Below are positions 1 through 8,328 of a stretch of 8,328 nucleotides of DNA, one piece after another (the first letter of the stretch is position 1; each line of letters starts with the position of its first letter). The notes beneath the pieces were generated by a model. It was not told the DNA's origin and made no database searches. It saw only the letters and a list, made by a program, of their open reading frames with translations. Both the position numbers and the translations under genes were made by a program. Origin of the DNA: a bacterium (GTDB lineage: Bacteria; ARS69); the NCBI GenBank assembly GCA_025774865.1, contig JALGZO010000431.1, positions 1 through 8,328 on the forward strand, given 5' to 3'.

Positions 1-101
1 GTCACGGTGGGGTCGTCCCCTCGGAGTGTCCGTTTCAGCACCACGCCGGCGACGATGAGTGCTGCGGCCCCGAGCACGATGGCGATACGGGGGAGTCTCA
101 T
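1..101 (-). CDS. Start of a small membrane-anchored protein (partial, cut by window edge)
   Basis: An ATG at 101-99 opens a frame with no stop to the window edge, giving 33 codons. The visible protein starts MRLPRI and then has a hydrophobic stretch of about 17 residues (roughly 5-22, rich in I, A, V, L and G). It continues with a basic KRTLRGDD segment. This looks like an N-terminal membrane anchor or uncleaved signal. The start is supported by GGAGGAG nine nucleotides upstream, inside the end of the preceding gene. The stop of that gene and this ATG are only four nucleotides apart (TGA-CACC-ATG), so the two are probably cotranscribed and translationally coupled. The rest of the protein lies outside the window, so no function can be assigned. 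A membrane-tethered thioredoxin-like or metal-handling protein would suit the operon, but nothing visible shows it. Confidence 0.72.
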   Translation of the reverse strand, partial: MRLPRIAIVLGAAALIVAGVVLKRTLRGDDPTV

Positions 102-105
102 GGTG

Positions 106-1251
106 TCACGCTCCTCCGCCGCACCCTTCGTGGCACGGGGGCTCGGGTGCCCGGTCCTGGACGTACGGTTCACCCGTCTCGAGGGATCTCTCGGCCCGCG
201 CGAGCTCGCTGCCCAGGTAGGCAGCGTGGTCGAGTCGCGAGACGAGCTCCCGGGCGATGATAGTCGCGTAGAGCTCGTGCGCCGTCCGGCCGGTGAATGC
301 GCGGGCGAGCGTGCCGTCGTTCTCGTAGTGCTCGACGAGGATGACCTTGCGGATACGGTCCGGGAAGAGGACGAAGTAGCCCTTCGGATCGAGCACGAGA
401 TGCGGTGGTGGCTCGGGCGCCACGGCGTCGGGTTCGTCCGGTGCTGAGACACGCGGACCTCGCGACTCGTTCGGAAACGGCACTGTCGCGAGGGCCTCGA
501 GGATGGTCTCGGCACTCTCTTCGCCGAGCTGATCGACCGCGGTGACCTCGCGACGGAACGTTTCGACCGTCTCCGACGGGAGGTTCCGCAGCACCGGCCG
601 CCGCCCCTTCGCCCCACGGATCCGGCCGCCCTCGTCCACACCGTGGGTCATGAGGCTCAGGAGCGATTGTCCCGGCCGGTGGCCGATCCGCTGCTGCGAG
701 TCCGTACCGCAGACGAGCAGGGTCAGGAGGTTCGGGTTCGCCATGACGTTCGTGATCACGCGCTCGATGCCGAGGTTCTCCGTATGGAGCGTGCCGACGA
801 TCGCCACCTGGGGCGGACGCGCGGCCATCAGGGCATCCATGAGGGACGTGGACGTGAGGACGCAGACGGCGATGTGGCCGCCGGCGTCGAGGACCTGGTA
901 CTCCCCGGGGAGTGGCGGCCACGTCTGCCCGCGAGTCGGCGTATCCGTCGGGCAGGCGTCGCCCGCGACCACCTCGGGATAGGCTTCGGCCGCCACGTTG
1001 AGTCCGTTGGCCGGCCAGCAGGTGTCGCAGCCGAGGCAGTCGTACTTGCGCGGGAGGACTCGGTCGGTTCCTTTCCGAAGGGCCGGTGTCAGGTGCTCCC
1101 GGTCGGGGTGGGGCAGCGACGGAAGCGAATCCGAGAGCTGCGCGAGCGCATCCTGGAAGCAGCCGCAGGGCCAGCACTTTCGTGCGGCCGCGGCTTCGCG
1201 CATCTCTTCGGCGATTCGGAGGACGGGGTCGTGCGTGCGGATGTCGCTCAC
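106..1251 (-). CDS. MtrA-like corrinoid-methyltransferase domain fused to DUF4346, Cys-rich
   Basis: This 381-residue protein has, in order: a Cys-rich N-terminus (C26-W-P-C29-G-C31); a second cluster (C72-L-G-C75-D-T-C78-W-P); an MtrA-like domain at about 111-243; and a DUF4346-like domain at about 286-366. The MtrA-like domain carries PPLPGEY, VAIVGTLHTENLGIERV and a GQSLLSL...GAKG stretch. The DUF4346-like domain carries DPKGYFV, EHY and SRLDHAAYLGSELARAE. A short tail carries C373 and C377 next to a GGG run. MtrA is the corrinoid-binding subunit of the archaeal tetrahydromethanopterin S-methyltransferase; H156 in LHTEN is the candidate cobalt ligand by analogy. No other Mtr subunit is visible, so a stand-alone methyl-transfer or corrinoid role is inferred. 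The GTG at 1251 was chosen because it overlaps the arsR stop (GTGA) and has AGGAGGT ten bases upstream. An in-frame start at 1302 would lie well inside arsR. Product class is fairly sure; the reaction is unknown. Confidence 0.85.
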   Translation of the reverse strand: MSDIRTHDPVLRIAEEMREAAAARKCWPCGCFQDALAQLSDSLPSLPHPDREHLTPALRKGTDRVLPRKYDCLGCDTCWPANGLNVAAEAYPEVVAGDACPTDTPTRGQTWPPLPGEYQVLDAGGHIAVCVLTSTSLMDALMAARPPQVAIVGTLHTENLGIERVITNVMANPNLLTLLVCGTDSQQRIGHRPGQSLLSLMTHGVDEGGRIRGAKGRRPVLRNLPSETVETFRREVTAVDQLGEESAETILEALATVPFPNESRGPRVSAPDEPDAVAPEPPPHLVLDPKGYFVLFPDRIRKVILVEHYENDGTLARAFTGRTAHELYATIIARELVSRLDHAAYLGSELARAERSLETGEPYVQDRAPEPPCHEGCGGGA

Positions 1252-1640
1252 GGGACGGCCAACCTCCTGAGGAGGTGTTCTTTCTGGACGCCCCGGAGAC
1301 ACTTGCCGCCCTCGCGGAGCCGCAACCGCTTCCGGAGCTCCCTCCGGTCACGGTCCAGGACCATGGTCGGAATGGTCGCGACCGCCCGAAAGAGCAGCTC
1401 CTGGAACGGCTCGGGAGCGTCGGCCGGGCGGTAGTAGACCCACCGGCCTTCCTTGCGGTTCTGGAGCAGGCCGACCGACTTCAGGGCCGCGAGATGCTTC
1501 GACACATTGTATTGGGGCTGCTCCAGACTATCGACGAACTCGCAGACGCAGAGCTCCGCTCCCGCGTCGAGGAGCAGTCGCAGGATCCGGAGCCGCGTCG
1601 GGTCGCCCAGCGTCTTGAGCATCGCGGTGTAGGTCTCCAT
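1248..1640 (-). CDS. ArsR/SmtB-family metal-sensing transcriptional repressor
   Basis: This 130-residue winged-helix protein is of typical ArsR length. Residues 8-22 (LKTLGDPTRLRILRL) are the classic N-terminal helix. Residues 29-34 (ELCVCE) match the ELCVC metal box, where C31 and C33 bind thiophilic metals such as As(III), Sb(III) or Cd(II) in known members. The recognition helix is near QPQYNVSKHLAALKSVGLL (42-60), followed by the wing KEGRWVYYR (63-71). C114 in the tail (GGKCLRGVQ) could be an extra ligand. In this family metal binding releases the operator. The ATG at 1640 fits the family's usual N-terminus and has AGGAG five bases upstream. An in-frame start at 1703 would add 21 residues with no family match and lacks a good ribosome site. 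The gene overlaps the MtrA-like gene by four bases and probably controls its own operon. Whether it senses arsenic or another metal cannot be read here. Confidence 0.93.
   Translation of the reverse strand: METYTAMLKTLGDPTRLRILRLLLDAGAELCVCEFVDSLEQPQYNVSKHLAALKSVGLLQNRKEGRWVYYRPADAPEPFQELLFRAVATIPTMVLDRDRRELRKRLRLREGGKCLRGVQKEHLLRRLAVP
1262..1276 (-). promoter_or_regulatory. Hairpin enclosing the ribosome binding site of the MtrA-like gene
   Basis: On the mRNA strand the sequence reads ACCTCC-TCA-GGAGGT, a perfect 6-bp stem with a 3-nt loop. The 3' arm is the Shine-Dalgarno sequence of the GTG start at 1251. The hairpin lies inside the last codons of arsR (encoding HLLRRL). A ribosome finishing arsR would therefore melt it and expose the site. 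Together with the GTGA overlap this suggests that translation of the MtrA-like protein depends on arsR translation. The pairing is seen; the regulatory effect is inferred. Confidence 0.6.
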
Positions 1641-1674
1641 CGGGTCTCCTGCTCGGTTGCGCATCCAGGCATGT

Positions 1675-1703
1675 ATTATCGGCGGCTGCGGTGGCCGTGG
1701 CAA
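1675..1703 (-). promoter_or_regulatory. Putative sigma-70-type promoter of the arsR operon
   Basis: On the minus strand TTGCCA (1703-1698) and GATAAT (1680-1675) are separated by exactly 17 nt. They match the -35 and -10 consensus boxes at 4 of 6 and 5 of 6 positions. The -10 box ends 34 nt before the arsR ATG, leaving a short leader with an AGGAG site. Promoter consensus in this lineage is not known from the window, so the call rests on spacing and match alone. Confidence 0.5.
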
Positions 1704-1804: not shown

Positions 1805-2770
1805 ATGCCCCTATCGAGACTCGCCGGTCGCGCTGCTCTGGCTCTTGGCATTCTGTGTGCTGCCATGCCTGGCGTCGCTTCTGCGCAAACGACGGAGTAC
1901 GAGGTCACCTTCGAGAGCACCTGGAGCGCGGCGACCCACCCCATCGACTTCCCGCCCAACCCTCACTTCTCGGGCCTCATCGGCGGGTCGCACTCCGATC
2001 AGGTCTCGTTCTGGGACGAGGGTGAGCTGGCGAGCCTGGGGATCAAGAACATGGCGGAGACGGGCAGCAAGACCGCGTTGACGCAGGAGGTTCAGGCTGC
2101 GATCACGGCGGGAACGGCGGATGCGGTTCTCTCGGGCGGCGGGATCGCTTCCTCGCCGGGATCGGTGACGTTGACTTTCGATGTCGACGCGGCGTTTCCG
2201 CTCGTGACGCTGGTCTCGATGCTCGCGCCGAGCCCCGACTGGTTCGTGGGCGTTTCGGGCTTGAGTCTCCGCGAGAGCGGCGAATGGATTCCCCAGCTCG
2301 TCGTCGTCCTCGTCGTTTACGATGCGGGTACGGACAGCGGCATGTCGTACAGGTCGCCCAACCAGCCGACCGTGCCGCCCGTTCCGATCTTCGAAAACAC
2401 CATGGGACCCTTCGCGGAGAACAACGTCGTGGGGACCTTTACGTTCGTACGGACGGAGGCGGTCGGCGTCGCGGAGGGTCTTCCCAGGGACCAGGAACAC
2501 CTCGTATCGCTGGGGCCGAATCCGGTCCGTCAAACAACTCGGTTCGAGATCCGAGTTCCGAGTGGTCGCTCCGGCGACCTCGCCGTGTACGGCGTCGGGG
2601 GGCAGCTCGTCCGGGGACTCTTCCACGGTCAGACGTCAGGCGAAATGAGCCTCGTGAGCTGGAACGGGCGCGATGACCGCGGCGCTCTCGTGCCGGCGGG
2701 CGTGTACTTCGTGGCTCTCCGCGTCGATGGCCTCCCGCAGGGCACGGAAAAGGTCGTGGTGACGCGGTAG
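1805..2770 (+). CDS. Secreted Spondin_N domain protein with FlgD-Ig/type-IX-like C-terminal tail
   Basis: This 321-residue protein has a signal peptide at 1-28 (LAGRAALALGILCAA, cleavage near GVASA-Q). A Spondin_N domain follows at about 31-215, with the family hallmarks HPIDFP (45-50), GSHSDQVSFW (61-70), PSPDWFVGV (142-150) and DAGTDSG (173-179). The final 85 residues (about 236-321) form an Ig-like tail (LGPNPVRQTTRFEI ... SWNGRDDRG ... VPAGVYFVALRV). Such tails are used in FCB-group bacteria as C-terminal sorting or anchoring modules. Spondin_N domains mediate matrix adhesion in animals; in bacteria their ligand is unknown. The ATG at 1805 is chosen because AGGAGG lies six bases upstream and the signal peptide starts there; a frame start at 1691 adds an implausible basic leader. 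It is divergent from arsR. No strong promoter was seen beyond weak hexamers near 1745-1773. Family is sure, role is not. Confidence 0.92.
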   Translation: MPLSRLAGRAALALGILCAAMPGVASAQTTEYEVTFESTWSAATHPIDFPPNPHFSGLIGGSHSDQVSFWDEGELASLGIKNMAETGSKTALTQEVQAAITAGTADAVLSGGGIASSPGSVTLTFDVDAAFPLVTLVSMLAPSPDWFVGVSGLSLRESGEWIPQLVVVLVVYDAGTDSGMSYRSPNQPTVPPVPIFENTMGPFAENNVVGTFTFVRTEAVGVAEGLPRDQEHLVSLGPNPVRQTTRFEIRVPSGRSGDLAVYGVGGQLVRGLFHGQTSGEMSLVSWNGRDDRGALVPAGVYFVALRVDGLPQGTEKVVVTR

Positions 2771-4204: not shown

Positions 4205-4431
4205 AGAATCATCTCCTCGTATGACGCGGATCATTGCCCCGTACCATCCCAGGCGTGTTCCCTCACTCTCAGGTCGATCTCGGTCCGCCATGCCGCGGCG
4301 CCCACGATGAGCCGCCAGTAGCAACAGGCCGCAGGGGTGCCACGTGGCAGCTTGGATGGACGGGACGGCTGTGGTCTGCGCGTAGCCAATCAATGATGTC
4401 TTCCCCAAGCGATTCGCGGAGGTGCGTGCGA
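4205..4431. other. Intergenic leader of the cytochrome c peroxidase gene
   Basis: No gene is supported here. The stretch links the IS110 remnant to the peroxidase ATG. It contains the perfect 12-bp palindrome TGCCACGTGGCA (4338-4349) and, at its end, the GGAGGT ribosome site (4418-4423). No clear -35/-10 pair was found. Open frames that cross it on either strand show no recognisable domain; the peroxidase frame stays open upstream to 4234, but that extension has no signal-peptide character. Confidence 0.5.
4338..4349. promoter_or_regulatory. 12-bp palindrome upstream of the peroxidase gene
   Basis: TGCCACGTGGCA is perfectly self-complementary and lies 82 bp before the peroxidase ATG, a usual distance for an operator. 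Around two perfect 12-bp palindromes are expected by chance in a window of this size, so its position is the main reason for listing it. No regulator is recognised. Confidence 0.25.
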
Positions 4432-6006
4432 ATGAGCAAGATCATCGGAGTCCTGGCCATCGTTGTGGCAGCAAGCGTGTGGGGTAGCACCGCTGTCGCG
4501 ACCGAGTTCGTATTGACTCCCAAGGAAGAGCTCGGAAGGTTCCTGTTCTTCGACAAGATCTCGGAGCCTAACTCCATGTCGTGCGCGGAGTGTCACGGAC
4601 CCAGCGTCGGATTCACTGGTCCGATCCCGGGTGTCAATCGGCGTGGTGCAGTGTACCGAGGCGCGATACCCCAGCGTTTCGGCAATCGGAAGCCGCCAAG
4701 CGCCAGCTATGCGACGGTGAGCCCTGTCTTCGACTTCGACGCCGGGGAAGGGCTCTTCATCGGCGGCAACTTCTGGGATGGTCGCGCCACGGGCGAGCAC
4801 CTCGGGAACCCAGCGGCCGATCAGGCCCTCGGTCCGTTCCTGAACCCCGTGGAACAGAACAACCCGAGCAAGCAGGTCGTTCTGGAGAAGGTGGCGGGCA
4901 GCTCCTACGCATCGTTGTGGGAGGTCGTTTGGGGCGAGCCGTTGGCGTACGGGACGCCGGCGGAAATCGAAGAGAACTACGATCGGATCGGCCGCGCCAT
5001 CGGCGAGTTCGAAGCATCTCCCGAAGTCAATCAGTTCTCGTCCAAATTCGACGTCTTCTGGGAGAACGCCGGAATCGCCGGAATGAACGTCGCCGCGATC
5101 AACATCGGCAACTGGCAAGACTACTCGAGCCTGGGCTTGAGTCGTAAGGAGCTCGAGGGGCTGGCTCTGTTCAACGACGAGAGCAAGGGGAAGTGCGCCC
5201 TCTGCCATGTTCTCGATCCAGTCGAGGGCGCGTCCGGCAACGAACTGCCCCCGGTGTTCACCGATTTCTCGTTCGACAACCTCGGCGTCCCCAAGAATCT
5301 CGACAACCCGTTCTACGACATGGACGAGGTGTACTTGGACGACGGCTCGCCGATCAACCCCGAGGGCGCGGCCTGGATCGATCCCGGTCTGGGCGGCTTC
5401 CTGGAGAATCACCCGAATCCGGCGTGGCAGGCCATGGCCGCCGAGAACTACGGCAAGCACAAGGTCCCCACGCTCCGGAACGTGGCCAAGGCTCCGAGCG
5501 AGAACTTCACGAAGGCGTACATGCACAACGGAGTCTTCAAGTCGCTGAGGGAGGTCGTTCACTTCTACAACACTCGAGACGTCGAAGACTGGCCGGATCC
5601 CGAAGTCCCCGAGAACGTGAATACCGATGAACTAGGTGATCTCGGGCTGAGCAGGGCCGAGGAGAAGCTGATCGTGCAGTTCATGGGGACCCTGTCCGAC
5701 GGCTACAACACGGGCAGGTCGCACAATACCCGCCGGAGCTCCACGGTTTTCGATCAGCCTCGAATCGCCCCGAATCCTTTCACGCGACACACGACGCTCG
5801 ACTACTCGCTGCCGAGTCCGGGCAGTGTGGAGATCCACGTCTTCAACGTCGCCGGCCAAAGGGTCGCGACGCTGGTCGACGGATTTCAAGAGTCGGGTCG
5901 GCACACGACGCGATTCGTCGCGGACGGACTTCCCAACGGTGTCTACTTCGTTCGACTCACCACGGAGCACGCCACGGCGACCACCAAGGCGATCGTGCTC
6001 GAGTAG
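4432..6006 (+). CDS. Secreted di-haem cytochrome c peroxidase (MauG/CcpA family) with C-terminal sorting tail
   Basis: This 524-residue protein starts with a signal peptide (1-24, MSKIIGVLAIVVAASVWG, cleavage near AVA-TE). It has two c-type haem motifs, C51-A-E-C54-H55 and C255-A-L-C258-H259, at the spacing of bacterial di-haem peroxidases. FWDGRATG (114-121) and YMHNGVFKSLREVVHFYN (363-380) are further family hallmarks. M364 is the expected axial Met of the electron-transfer haem; MauG proper has Tyr there, so a peroxidase is favoured. Such enzymes reduce H2O2 in the periplasm with electrons from small cytochromes. The extra C-terminal tail (about 445-524: IAPNPFTRHTTLDYSLP ... LPNGVYFVRL) is an Ig-like type-IX-style sorting module, unusual for this family and suggesting surface display. 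The ATG at 4432 has GGAGGT eight bases upstream and begins the signal peptide. It ends at a strong hairpin and is flanked by two mobile elements. Confidence 0.93.
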   Translation: MSKIIGVLAIVVAASVWGSTAVATEFVLTPKEELGRFLFFDKISEPNSMSCAECHGPSVGFTGPIPGVNRRGAVYRGAIPQRFGNRKPPSASYATVSPVFDFDAGEGLFIGGNFWDGRATGEHLGNPAADQALGPFLNPVEQNNPSKQVVLEKVAGSSYASLWEVVWGEPLAYGTPAEIEENYDRIGRAIGEFEASPEVNQFSSKFDVFWENAGIAGMNVAAINIGNWQDYSSLGLSRKELEGLALFNDESKGKCALCHVLDPVEGASGNELPPVFTDFSFDNLGVPKNLDNPFYDMDEVYLDDGSPINPEGAAWIDPGLGGFLENHPNPAWQAMAAENYGKHKVPTLRNVAKAPSENFTKAYMHNGVFKSLREVVHFYNTRDVEDWPDPEVPENVNTDELGDLGLSRAEEKLIVQFMGTLSDGYNTGRSHNTRRSSTVFDQPRIAPNPFTRHTTLDYSLPSPGSVEIHVFNVAGQRVATLVDGFQESGRHTTRFVADGLPNGVYFVRLTTEHATATTKAIVLE

Positions 6007-6503: not shown

Positions 6504-6540
6504 GTCGAGTCGCGCGGGGGAGTCGCACCCCCACGCGCTC
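6504..6540 (-). ncRNA. Group II intron domain VI with bulged branch-point A and 3' splice site
   Basis: On the minus strand GAG-CGCG-T-GGGGG (6540-6528) pairs with CCCCC-G-CGCG-[A]-CTC (6520-6507), leaving a 7-nt loop. All 13 pairs form (one T-G wobble), with a single unpaired A at 6510, three pairs above the base. This is the standard layout of domain VI, where the bulged A makes the 2'-5' lariat bond. The intron then ends GAC at 6504, and the 3' exon starts CCCCATATC. Confidence 0.88.
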
Positions 6541-6543
6541 ACA

Positions 6544-6577
6544 GAACCGGACGTGAACCTCTCAGCTCATCCGGCTC
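6544..6577 (-). ncRNA. Group II intron domain V (catalytic core)
   Basis: This is a 34-nt hairpin of the canonical kind. A lower stem GAGCCGGA/TCCGGTTC contains the catalytic AGC triad. A two-base AC bulge follows, then an upper stem GAGCT/GGTTC closed by a GAGA tetraloop of the GNRA type. It begins directly after the maturase stop codon (TAA, 6580-6578) and is joined to domain VI by three nucleotides (TGT). Size, triad, bulge and loop all match, so this identification is firm. Confidence 0.95.
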
Positions 6578-7834
6578 TTACCGTCCAGCCGCCGGTCTCG
6601 CTCCGAAGCTCCAATGGGTAAACAACTCCCCATCGCGGGCGGCGATGCGTCCCAACCAGCGAGACGCTCGCACCCATCGACCTCGGAAACGCTTGTATTT
6701 CCGCATCGCCCATTTCACAAGAGCGAAGGTCAAGCTGCGGCCCAGGACAGCAAGGCAGCGCGACCGATAGAATCGGCCGTAGTAAGCCACCCATCCCCGC
6801 ACGACGGGATTGATGAACTGTGCGAGTTCGTCCAAAGATCGGGCGTTCCCTTTGGTGGCAAGATGCCATCCTCGGATAGTCGCCCTAATCTTCTTGGCCG
6901 CCTTGTCACTCATGGCCGGCAGGAATCCCACAAAGGTCTTCCGGCTTGGACCCTGAGCCCTTCGTGGTCTGAAGGTGTACCCAAGGAAATCGAACTCGTG
7001 TTCACCGTACTTGCCCCGGCGACGATCGTCCTTGCAGTAGACGATCCTCGTTTTCTCCGGATGCAGCTCCAGCTGGCACTCGCTCAGTCTCCTGCGCACC
7101 GCCTCTAAGACATGTCGGGCCTGGTCCAGGATCACGCAGTGGATCACAACGTCGTCGGCGTACCGCTCGAACGGAACCGAGGGAAACGTCCTCCGCATCC
7201 AATCGTCGAACGCATAGTGCATGAACAGGTTCGCCAGCAAGGGACTGATAACTCCCCCTTGCGGTGTTCCAGCGGTGCGGGCCTCGAGGGTCCCATCCGC
7301 CCATTGCACCGGTGCTTTCAGCCACCGTTCCACGTACAGATGGATCCACTTCAAGTCCGTGTGATGCTTCACCGCCTTCATCAAAAGGTCATGATCCAAG
7401 CTCCCGAAAAAGTCTCGGATATCCAGATCGATGACCCAGTCCATGCGAAAGCAGCGCTTCCGCGCCACCTCCACCGCGTCCAGTGCCGACTTGCCAGGCC
7501 GATAACCGTACGAGTCGCGGTGAAACACAGGCTCCACCTCGGGCTCGAACGTCAGCTTAGCCACCATCTGCGCGATCCGGTCTGCCACCGTCGGGATTCC
7601 CAACGGTCGCATCCCACCTTCACCTTTGGGGATCTCCACCAGACGAACCGGAGGTGGGAAGTAGCTCCCCGACGACATCCGATTCCAGACCTTATAAAGG
7701 TTATCCTTCAGGTCCTTATCGAATGCCCGGAGCGATTCACCATCCACTCCGGCTGCCCCCCGGTTGGCTTTCACCAACCGGTACGCCTTCGCGACAAGAT
7801 GCTTGGAAATACTGAACGGCTTCGCCTCAACCAT
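6578..7834 (-). CDS. ltrA: Group II intron reverse transcriptase/maturase
   Basis: This 418-residue protein splices its host intron RNA and copies it into DNA during retrohoming. The reverse transcriptase core spans about 25-290, with RPLGIPTVADRIAQ (76-89), SYGYRPGKSALDAV (108-121), VIDLDIRDFFGSLDH (134-148, catalytic D138), GTPQGGVISPLLANLF (189-204), YADD (225-228) and FLGYTFRPR (283-291). The maturase (X/GIIM) domain follows at about 300-410, with AQFINPVVRGWVAYYGRFY. There is no HNH endonuclease, so it is shorter than LtrA of Lactococcus (about 600 residues). Such enzymes usually insert using a nascent replication strand or other priming. The ATG at 7834 has GGGGAGG close upstream and gives the family's normal N-terminus (KPFSISKH). 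The stop touches domain V. All motifs are intact, so it may be functional. The exact intron class was not assigned. Confidence 0.96.
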   Translation of the reverse strand: MVEAKPFSISKHLVAKAYRLVKANRGAAGVDGESLRAFDKDLKDNLYKVWNRMSSGSYFPPPVRLVEIPKGEGGMRPLGIPTVADRIAQMVAKLTFEPEVEPVFHRDSYGYRPGKSALDAVEVARKRCFRMDWVIDLDIRDFFGSLDHDLLMKAVKHHTDLKWIHLYVERWLKAPVQWADGTLEARTAGTPQGGVISPLLANLFMHYAFDDWMRRTFPSVPFERYADDVVIHCVILDQARHVLEAVRRRLSECQLELHPEKTRIVYCKDDRRRGKYGEHEFDFLGYTFRPRRAQGPSRKTFVGFLPAMSDKAAKKIRATIRGWHLATKGNARSLDELAQFINPVVRGWVAYYGRFYRSRCLAVLGRSLTFALVKWAMRKYKRFRGRWVRASRWLGRIAARDGELFTHWSFGARPAAGR

Positions 7835-8328
7835 GAGCTCCTCCCCTTGCGGGTTGACTCACCTTTGAGACTGGATGGTTCAGCCCCTTCGCTCCACCCG
7901 CATTACCAGGTTTCATCGCTACTACGAGCTGATCCGCCCCTGCGCTCCGCCTCGGTACTCTGGCCCTTGGAGTTCCGGCTCCTCGGACTTCTCCCTTCGC
8001 ATCGGAGCACCAGGTTCCCACGTTCCGCATGAAAGCCTGAACCAGGTTCGCGCCGCCTCTCTGCCGGCCACCGTCCAGCCAGTAAGCAGGTTCCCGCTGG
8101 ACTCATTCCCAGATCCCGAAAAGTGACCTGGTTTCGATGACGTCTGTATCTGTTTCGACAGCTCTTCGGCGGTTCACTCGCGTTCGCCTTCCTGATCCTC
8201 ACCTGACGGGGTCTTCCCCGCCTTTTCCCGGTCCGCTCACCACCTGGGATCTCATCCCCACGCAGCGCCGGGTGGTTTGAGAACTGGTCCTGCAACCCGT
8301 ACTCGGGGGGCCCACCCCCATCTTCCAT
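7835..8328 (-). ncRNA. Group II intron 5' RNA (domains I-III region)
   Basis: This stretch precedes the maturase on the same strand and has no real gene. It is full of self-complementary segments, for example GGCGGGG-AAGA-CCCCGTC at 8222-8205 and GAACC-TGGTTC near 8055-8045. A 141-codon open frame crosses it on the minus strand (7903-8328). Its composition is rich in R, G and S, and similar frames are commonly annotated over this part of related introns, so it is taken as RNA read as protein. Domain I should hold the exon-binding sites, but these were not assigned with confidence. The GTGGG at 8315-8311 is the best 5' splice-site candidate. Confidence 0.7.

Follow-up and report, generated by a model that had tools for sequence, protein, structure and literature searches.

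A hitherto unstudied 381-residue protein that joins an MtrA corrinoid domain to a DUF4346 domain suggests an unrecognized, vitamin B12-based handling of toxic metals. The protein is encoded in a window of 8,328 nucleotides, the whole stretch of DNA analyzed here, which constitutes an entire contig (G000:C435) of a metagenome bin; the bacterial phylum concerned is poorly sampled, with five genomes in our collection. Comparison of the locus with its relatives places it in a metal-resistance context, an assignment we regard as well supported. We tentatively favor, at somewhat less than an even chance, the reading that the locus confers inducible metal resistance through an operon with, at its catalytic core, a single corrinoid polypeptide that transfers methyl groups and acts on a thiophilic metal; the metal would presumably be methylated, and the methyl group would presumably travel toward it.

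On the minus strand, promoter-like boxes, a palindrome, arsR and mtrA-DUF4346 follow one another before the contig ends 33 codons into a further gene. The candidate promoter consists of a -35-like box TTGCCA (1698–1703, minus strand; a consensus match) located 17 nt before a -10-like box GATAAT (1675–1680, minus strand; read directly from the sequence). A repeat search identified a 22-nt imperfect palindrome, TGCCTGGATGCGCAACCGAGCA (1650–1671, minus strand), downstream of the -10 box and ahead of the arsR start; it is the putative ArsR operator. The palindrome pattern TGCGTCTATGCGCAACTAAGCA occupies the same position, within different flanks, in two loci from Krumholzibacteriia (L035, L036), and these loci encode the nearest relatives of the window protein among the best 80 of 499 (56–57% identity). 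The arsR gene itself (1248–1640, minus strand) encodes a 130-residue ArsR/SmtB metalloregulator (PF01022, E 1.5e-12; NF033788, E 7.9e-25 and 86.5 bits against a cut-off of 55) with the cysteine site ELCVC, within ELCVCE, and a C-terminal GKC, in agreement with the CVC-type ArsR proposed in the first-pass annotation. The gene overlap reported there is also real: the arsR stop and the GTG start of mtrA-DUF4346 (106–1251, minus strand) share 4 nt (GTGA), and a GGAGG Shine-Dalgarno sequence precedes the GTG at 1251. As read from the sequence, the two genes are translationally coupled.

The remainder of the window has a different content. Divergent from the arsR operon lies a gene for a Spondin_N protein whose C-terminal domain weakly resembles FlgD in Pfam (1805–2770, plus strand). 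It is followed by the N-terminal part of an IS110-type transposase (PF01548; 3362–4063, minus strand), apparently a fragment, and by a di-heme protein of the cytochrome c peroxidase/MauG kind that ends in a sorting domain in the style of type IX secretion (4387–6006, plus strand). A group II intron occupies 6504–8319 (minus strand), with Rfam intron parts at 8201–8319 and 6504–6579 and a reverse transcriptase/maturase above the NCBIfam cut-off at 6578–7834. No merA was present among the open reading frames scanned in the window.

The MtrA and DUF4346 domains claimed from the sequence alone were both confirmed in Pfam. Residues 109–253 (493–927, minus strand) match the MtrA corrinoid-binding domain (PF04208, E 2.6e-32; 112.3 bits against a curated cut-off of 25), and residues 287–366 (154–393, minus strand) match the PterinBD-DUF4346 domain (PF14251, E 6.3e-24; 85 bits against a curated cut-off of 29.6). 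The first 105 residues have no Pfam match; a helical cysteine domain (residues 9–105; 937–1227, minus strand) was delimited there from modeled helices and invariant cysteines. An AlphaFold model of the protein, made with 64 sequences (mean pLDDT 86, pTM 0.58), contains a helical N-terminal domain (9–90, with helices at 9–22, 30–45, 48–64 and 79–90), the MtrA domain and, at the C terminus, a small alpha/beta domain. The MtrA part of the model superimposes on cobalamin-bound MtrA (5laa) with a Z score of 23.0 and an rmsd of 1.5 Å over 151 residues. Across 376 genomes, the N-terminal cysteine domain was always joined to MtrA-DUF4346 and was used in no protein besides the full-length relatives. 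The closest NCBI model, NF002128, aligns with residues 12–370 (359 residues; E 8e-131) at 436.8 bits, below its cut-off of 568.

A pterin-binding role for DUF4346 is suggested by its Pfam name and by its gene associations. The domain co-occurs with thymidylate synthase (ThyA) and a DHPS-like protein and adjoins metE, and its company of folate enzymes fits a folate-type ligand. One locus (L029, 3695–5164) encodes a 490-residue protein composed of thymidylate synthase, DUF4346 and a weak MtrA-like stretch, next to a dCTP deaminase-like gene; L028 has a similar weak MtrA-like match. On a Nostoc plasmid the gene order is DUF1636, metE and DUF4346 (L033, 25–3330).

Conservation of the cobalamin site argues that the MtrA domain binds a corrinoid, a function strongly supported by homology. 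In MtrA, cobalamin is contacted by Tyr18, Thr53, Glu54, Asn55, Gly57 and Asn64, and His84 is the cobalt ligand (PMC4915002). Counting along the alignment mapped these residues to Y118, T157, E158, N159, G161, N168 and H191 of the window protein. T157, N159, G161, N168 and H191 are present in 85 of 85 relatives, E158 in 84 and Tyr at position 118 in 79; T157, E158 and N159 fall within one search pattern, so that the search itself accounts for part of their conservation, and H191 and the N-terminal cysteines lie outside that pattern. The expectation that H156 faces cobalt had to be abandoned: H156 aligns with MtrA position 52 and is His in only 48 of the 85 relatives, and the ligand position His84 corresponds to the universal H191.

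The three cysteine clusters noted earlier fared unequally. C26/C29/C31 (CxxCxC) and C72/C75/C78 (CxxCxxCxP) are invariant wherever the region is present (82–84 of 85 relatives), whereas C373/C377 are kept in only 51–53 of 85 and form an optional pair. A seventh cysteine, C100, had been missed; 82 of the 85 relatives have a Cys in that stretch. The pattern CxxCxxC...C(P) formed by C72/C75/C78 and C100 recalls a [4Fe-4S] site, and such a cluster is probable, while CxxCxC could constitute a separate thiolate site.

Relatives were collected by an alignment scan of 84,980 species genomes, which found 499 encoding stretches; a single-sequence scan of the genome contigs with the window protein had found none. 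The best 80 of the 499 were retained, so that the frequencies given here describe near relatives. These 80 span about 15 phyla, and two archaeal bins are among them. The gene also occurs in a plasmid collection, in Paraburkholderia and on three Planococcus plasmids, and the two fully linear ones among the latter share the order arsR, HMA protein, P1B ATPase and mtrA-DUF4346. Cultured carriers include Dechloromonas hortensis, Methylomonas methanica and the plasmid-bearing Planococcus kocurii.

ArsR is a regular companion of these genes. Using a home-made ArsR profile, we detected a co-directional ArsR gene within 3 kb upstream in 55 of the 79 loci (70%) with enough upstream sequence, and at a distance of at most 150 nt in 37, all from the best 80 of 499. 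Given the 8 ArsR genes that the host carries over 4.7 Mb, chance alone would place one upstream in about 0.25% of cases. The ArsR neighbors carry three cysteine patterns: ELCVC with GKC as in the window, a CadC-like CxxxC with ELCVC, and C-terminal DPC/GLC; CadR/PbrR- or MerR-type regulators occur at some loci. A deep branch (L104–L114 and kin) is mostly without ArsR. The predicted co-occurrence with ArsR is thereby borne out, and with an MtrA match, ArsR linkage and retained cysteines all found, neither of the outcomes that the first-pass annotation had listed as telling against it (no MtrA match, or homologs always apart from ArsR and with H156 or the cysteine clusters lost) was encountered.

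Membrane and metal-transport genes recur in the same neighborhoods. Among 84 loci, the downstream pair was a thioredoxin-like protein (TrxP) with CcdA in 20, an OB-like protein with a four-helix (4TM) membrane protein in 14 and OB with FtsX in 4; a 4TM gene lay upstream in 4 more, and no recognized downstream partner was seen at 34. The place between arsR and mtrA is taken by MerC-family proteins in 7 Gammaproteobacteria and by SMR pairs in 3 loci. A metal/drug transporter, MerC-family protein or arsenic gene was found within about 6.5 kb in 42 of the 84 loci, and recurrent neighbors also include SMR pumps, P1B ATPases, CzcA and CDF proteins; no ArsM was found among them. A mercuric reductase gene is located beside the operon in two loci only: merA, merC, merP and merR directly adjoin it in Dechloromonas hortensis (L043), and merR, merC and merA lie just upstream of mtrA-DUF4346 in L067. 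The P1B, CzcA, MerC-family, SMR, CadR/MerR-type and merA neighbors fit the thiophilic-metal-responsive corrinoid system originally proposed, in which the handling or methylation of the metal itself would be the presumptive part. Together these partners point to several metals (arsenic/antimony, cadmium/lead and mercury) rather than to one particular substrate. Two other arrangements were observed. In L027 (5166–7981, minus strand), genes for ArsR and an ArsP_1 permease run in one direction with that for a lone MtrA lacking DUF4346, a second link between MtrA and ArsR. In two Acidobacteria loci (L057, 2243–2782; L062, 5436–5897), the gene between arsR and mtrA-DUF4346 encodes a V4R-domain protein that weakly matches MsvR, a redox regulator of methanogens.

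The third gene of the window operon (1–101, minus strand), described earlier simply as a membrane protein, encodes a small membrane-anchored protein and runs off the contig after its first 33 codons; the full arrangement, an anchored protein and then a GCCGSP membrane protein, is present on contig C682 of the same bin. That contig overlaps the first ~165 bases of the window (L022 4511–4697 against window 1–165) with ~99% identity apart from a 21-nt insertion, and therefore represents either this site in a variant strain or a second copy of it. The insertion falls at the 3' end of mtrA-DUF4346, and the C-terminal cysteine tail differs between the two versions. On C682 the anchored protein (L022 4214–4612, minus strand) has 132 residues, a single N-terminal hydrophobic segment and a CxxxxC pair; it had no meaningful match in Pfam, NCBIfam or the PDB, and our label 'OB' or 'OB-like' for it comes from the appearance of its sequence. 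The 4TM protein (L022 3693–4217, minus strand) follows. Four main helices and a motif, GCCGSP, that never varies characterize its family alignment, and the protein gave no meaningful match in Pfam or NCBIfam, nor to any PDB chain by sequence or fold. We considered it as a relative of MerC or CcdA, and set this aside after profile comparison lent no support and the PDB searches returned no match; its CC pair within a helix gives an impression of MerT. L112 encodes an in-frame fusion of a 4TM membrane protein with MtrA-DUF4346, which argues that the membrane protein and MtrA-DUF4346 work together.

From these elements the following mechanism can be drawn for the favored methyl-transfer operon. 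The palindrome, the promoter and the CVC motif suggest that a thiophilic metal or metalloid would free ArsR from the 22-nt operator at its own promoter. By analogy with MerP, MerT and MerC, the GCCGSP membrane protein and its anchored extracytoplasmic neighbor may pass metal or reducing power across the membrane, a role that thioredoxin-like proteins with CcdA/DsbD, or a MerC-family protein, would take in other lineages. The corrinoid would be held in the MtrA domain with H191 as the lower cobalt ligand, for which homology gives strong support. DUF4346 may supply methyl-pterin in cis, in place of MtrH, and methylene-folate reductase (MTHFR), which the host genome encodes in addition to a single MtrA and a single DUF4346, makes a methyl-pterin donor available. 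An Fe-S cluster carried by C72/C75/C78/C100 may keep the cobalt reduced, C26/C29/C31 may present the metal, and the methyl group would pass from pterin to cobalt to metal to yield a volatile or exportable methyl-metal, nearby efflux pumps forming a possible second line. In mer systems, metal is imported because a cytoplasmic protein will convert it. The dedicated cysteine-bearing membrane proteins and the MerC-family proteins recall this logic, which makes metal methylation the leading hypothesis. To our knowledge, methylation of cadmium or lead in cells is little documented. In the host bin itself, a search with PF00122 found no P-type ATPase in all 4.7 Mb, and the control search was positive in 14 of 14 control genomes.

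The same components could work in the opposite direction, with organometals such as methylmercury or methylated arsenic or lead being demethylated, the methyl group moving to cob(I)alamin and on to tetrahydrofolate, and ArsR sensing the freed inorganic metal. The NCBIfam models matched by the MerC-family proteins between arsR and mtrA in Gammaproteobacteria are named organomercurial transporter, the adjacent merA of two loci could remove freed Hg(II), and L027 combines ArsR, the ArsP_1 permease and a lone MtrA. The sensors, however, belong to the type that responds to inorganic metal, SMR and P1B pumps suit the export of metal or cationic products at least equally well, and no MerB was noticed in an unsystematic look through the neighborhoods; we consider demethylation unlikely. 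A metal might instead be no more than the inducer of a bypass in one-carbon metabolism, in which a metal-tolerant carrier takes methyl groups from methyl-folate and delivers them to homocysteine or some other acceptor in the cell when metals inactivate thiol or zinc enzymes such as MetE/MetH. This agrees with the folate enzymes around DUF4346 and the metE adjoining it on the Nostoc plasmid, and with the prediction that MtrA is the methyl donor of the core methionine synthases MesA (PMC7857596). Across the 84 neighborhoods, metal transporters, MerC-family proteins and membrane redox proteins recur, but no methionine synthase or other one-carbon gene does, and a dedicated membrane partner would be superfluous, all of which makes the bypass rather doubtful.

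Six to seven conserved cysteines, and CcdA and thioredoxin-like partners, would also suit a protein whose corrinoid chemistry has been lost, its cysteine domain sequestering or reducing metal and its MtrA domain persisting as a relic scaffold. A relic would not keep cobalamin-contact residues, including the cobalt-ligand His, unchanged or almost unchanged across 85 diverse sequences, and we hold this account to be quite improbable. We find it scarcely credible that the protein is a stray subunit of an Mtr complex of the methanogen type that adjoins arsR by chance. The name of the closest NCBI model, tetrahydromethanopterin S-methyltransferase subunit A, speaks for it, yet the score is 437 bits against a cut-off of 568, and the MtrA of Mtr lacks the extra cysteine and DUF4346 domains. 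A PF02007 search, positive in methanogens as a control, found no MtrH in the host bin (93% complete), and a single MtrA without MtrH makes membership of an Mtr complex unlikely; the missing complex and the ArsR linkage in 70% of loci already contradict it.

Methylation governs the toxicity and mobility of mercury, arsenic and similar elements. We know of no dedicated corrinoid metal methylase described so far other than HgcA. It is possible, rather than probable, that the family represents a second, independently evolved biological route of metal methylation, in which an MtrA-fold B12 enzyme transfers the methyl group of a folate-type pterin to a thiophilic metal or metalloid, as part of a regulated resistance with its own metal-transfer membrane proteins that is spread over many phyla, aerobes included, and carried on plasmids. 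If true, plain bacteria would widely possess a metal-regulated B12/pterin protein that represents a new type of metal-resistance enzyme and could explain methylated metals where hgcAB is absent; the misleading name Mtr subunit A in the database would also be corrected. Even with another substrate, the operon presents a clear and testable unknown in cultured hosts. A search of the open-access literature, with subscription papers outside its scope, returned no paper on DUF4346 and none tying MtrA to metal resistance.

Among known systems, the methanogen Mtr subunit MtrA (PF04208) shares with the window protein its fold (Z 23), its B12 contacts and its cobalt-ligand His (H191 corresponding to His84). 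The window protein differs in having no C-terminal transmembrane helix and in its added cysteine and DUF4346 domains, and its host has no MtrH and its operon has ArsR, with metal genes in relatives. The proteins of NF002128 (PRK00964.1-6, 390 aa) have the same length and domain order; the window protein scores below the cut-off and is a non-member by the NCBI rule, and the name Mtr subunit A misfits its context. ArsM operons are likewise under ArsR control and would share metalloid methylation if the hypothesis holds, whereas the arsenite methyltransferase ArsM depends on S-adenosylmethionine and uses no corrinoid. The mer operon, adjacent in L043 and L067, is similarly metal-controlled and can include a MerC-family membrane protein together with a cytoplasmic protein; in the window operon, by contrast, mercuric reductase is lacking, ArsR replaces MerR and the core is a B12 protein instead of a flavoprotein. 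The closest analog is HgcAB, in which a corrinoid protein, ferredoxin-type CxxCxxCxxxCP clusters and a membrane part methylate mercury (PMC11588087), and some strains have an ArsR-like regulator upstream of hgcAB (PMC7438021); the window operon resembles it in its predicted corrinoid protein, cysteine clusters, membrane part and ArsR-type regulator. HgcA belongs to another corrinoid family with a Cys ligand, whereas the window protein has the MtrA fold and a His at the ligand position; in Pfam, only MtrA and DUF4346 reach E 0.1 with the 381-residue protein, and the HgcA/CdhD-type corrinoid domain is not matched. Metal methylation, the activity of HgcAB, is what we infer for the window protein, which differs further in combining a cysteine, a corrinoid and a pterin domain in a single polypeptide and in having relatives also in aerobes.
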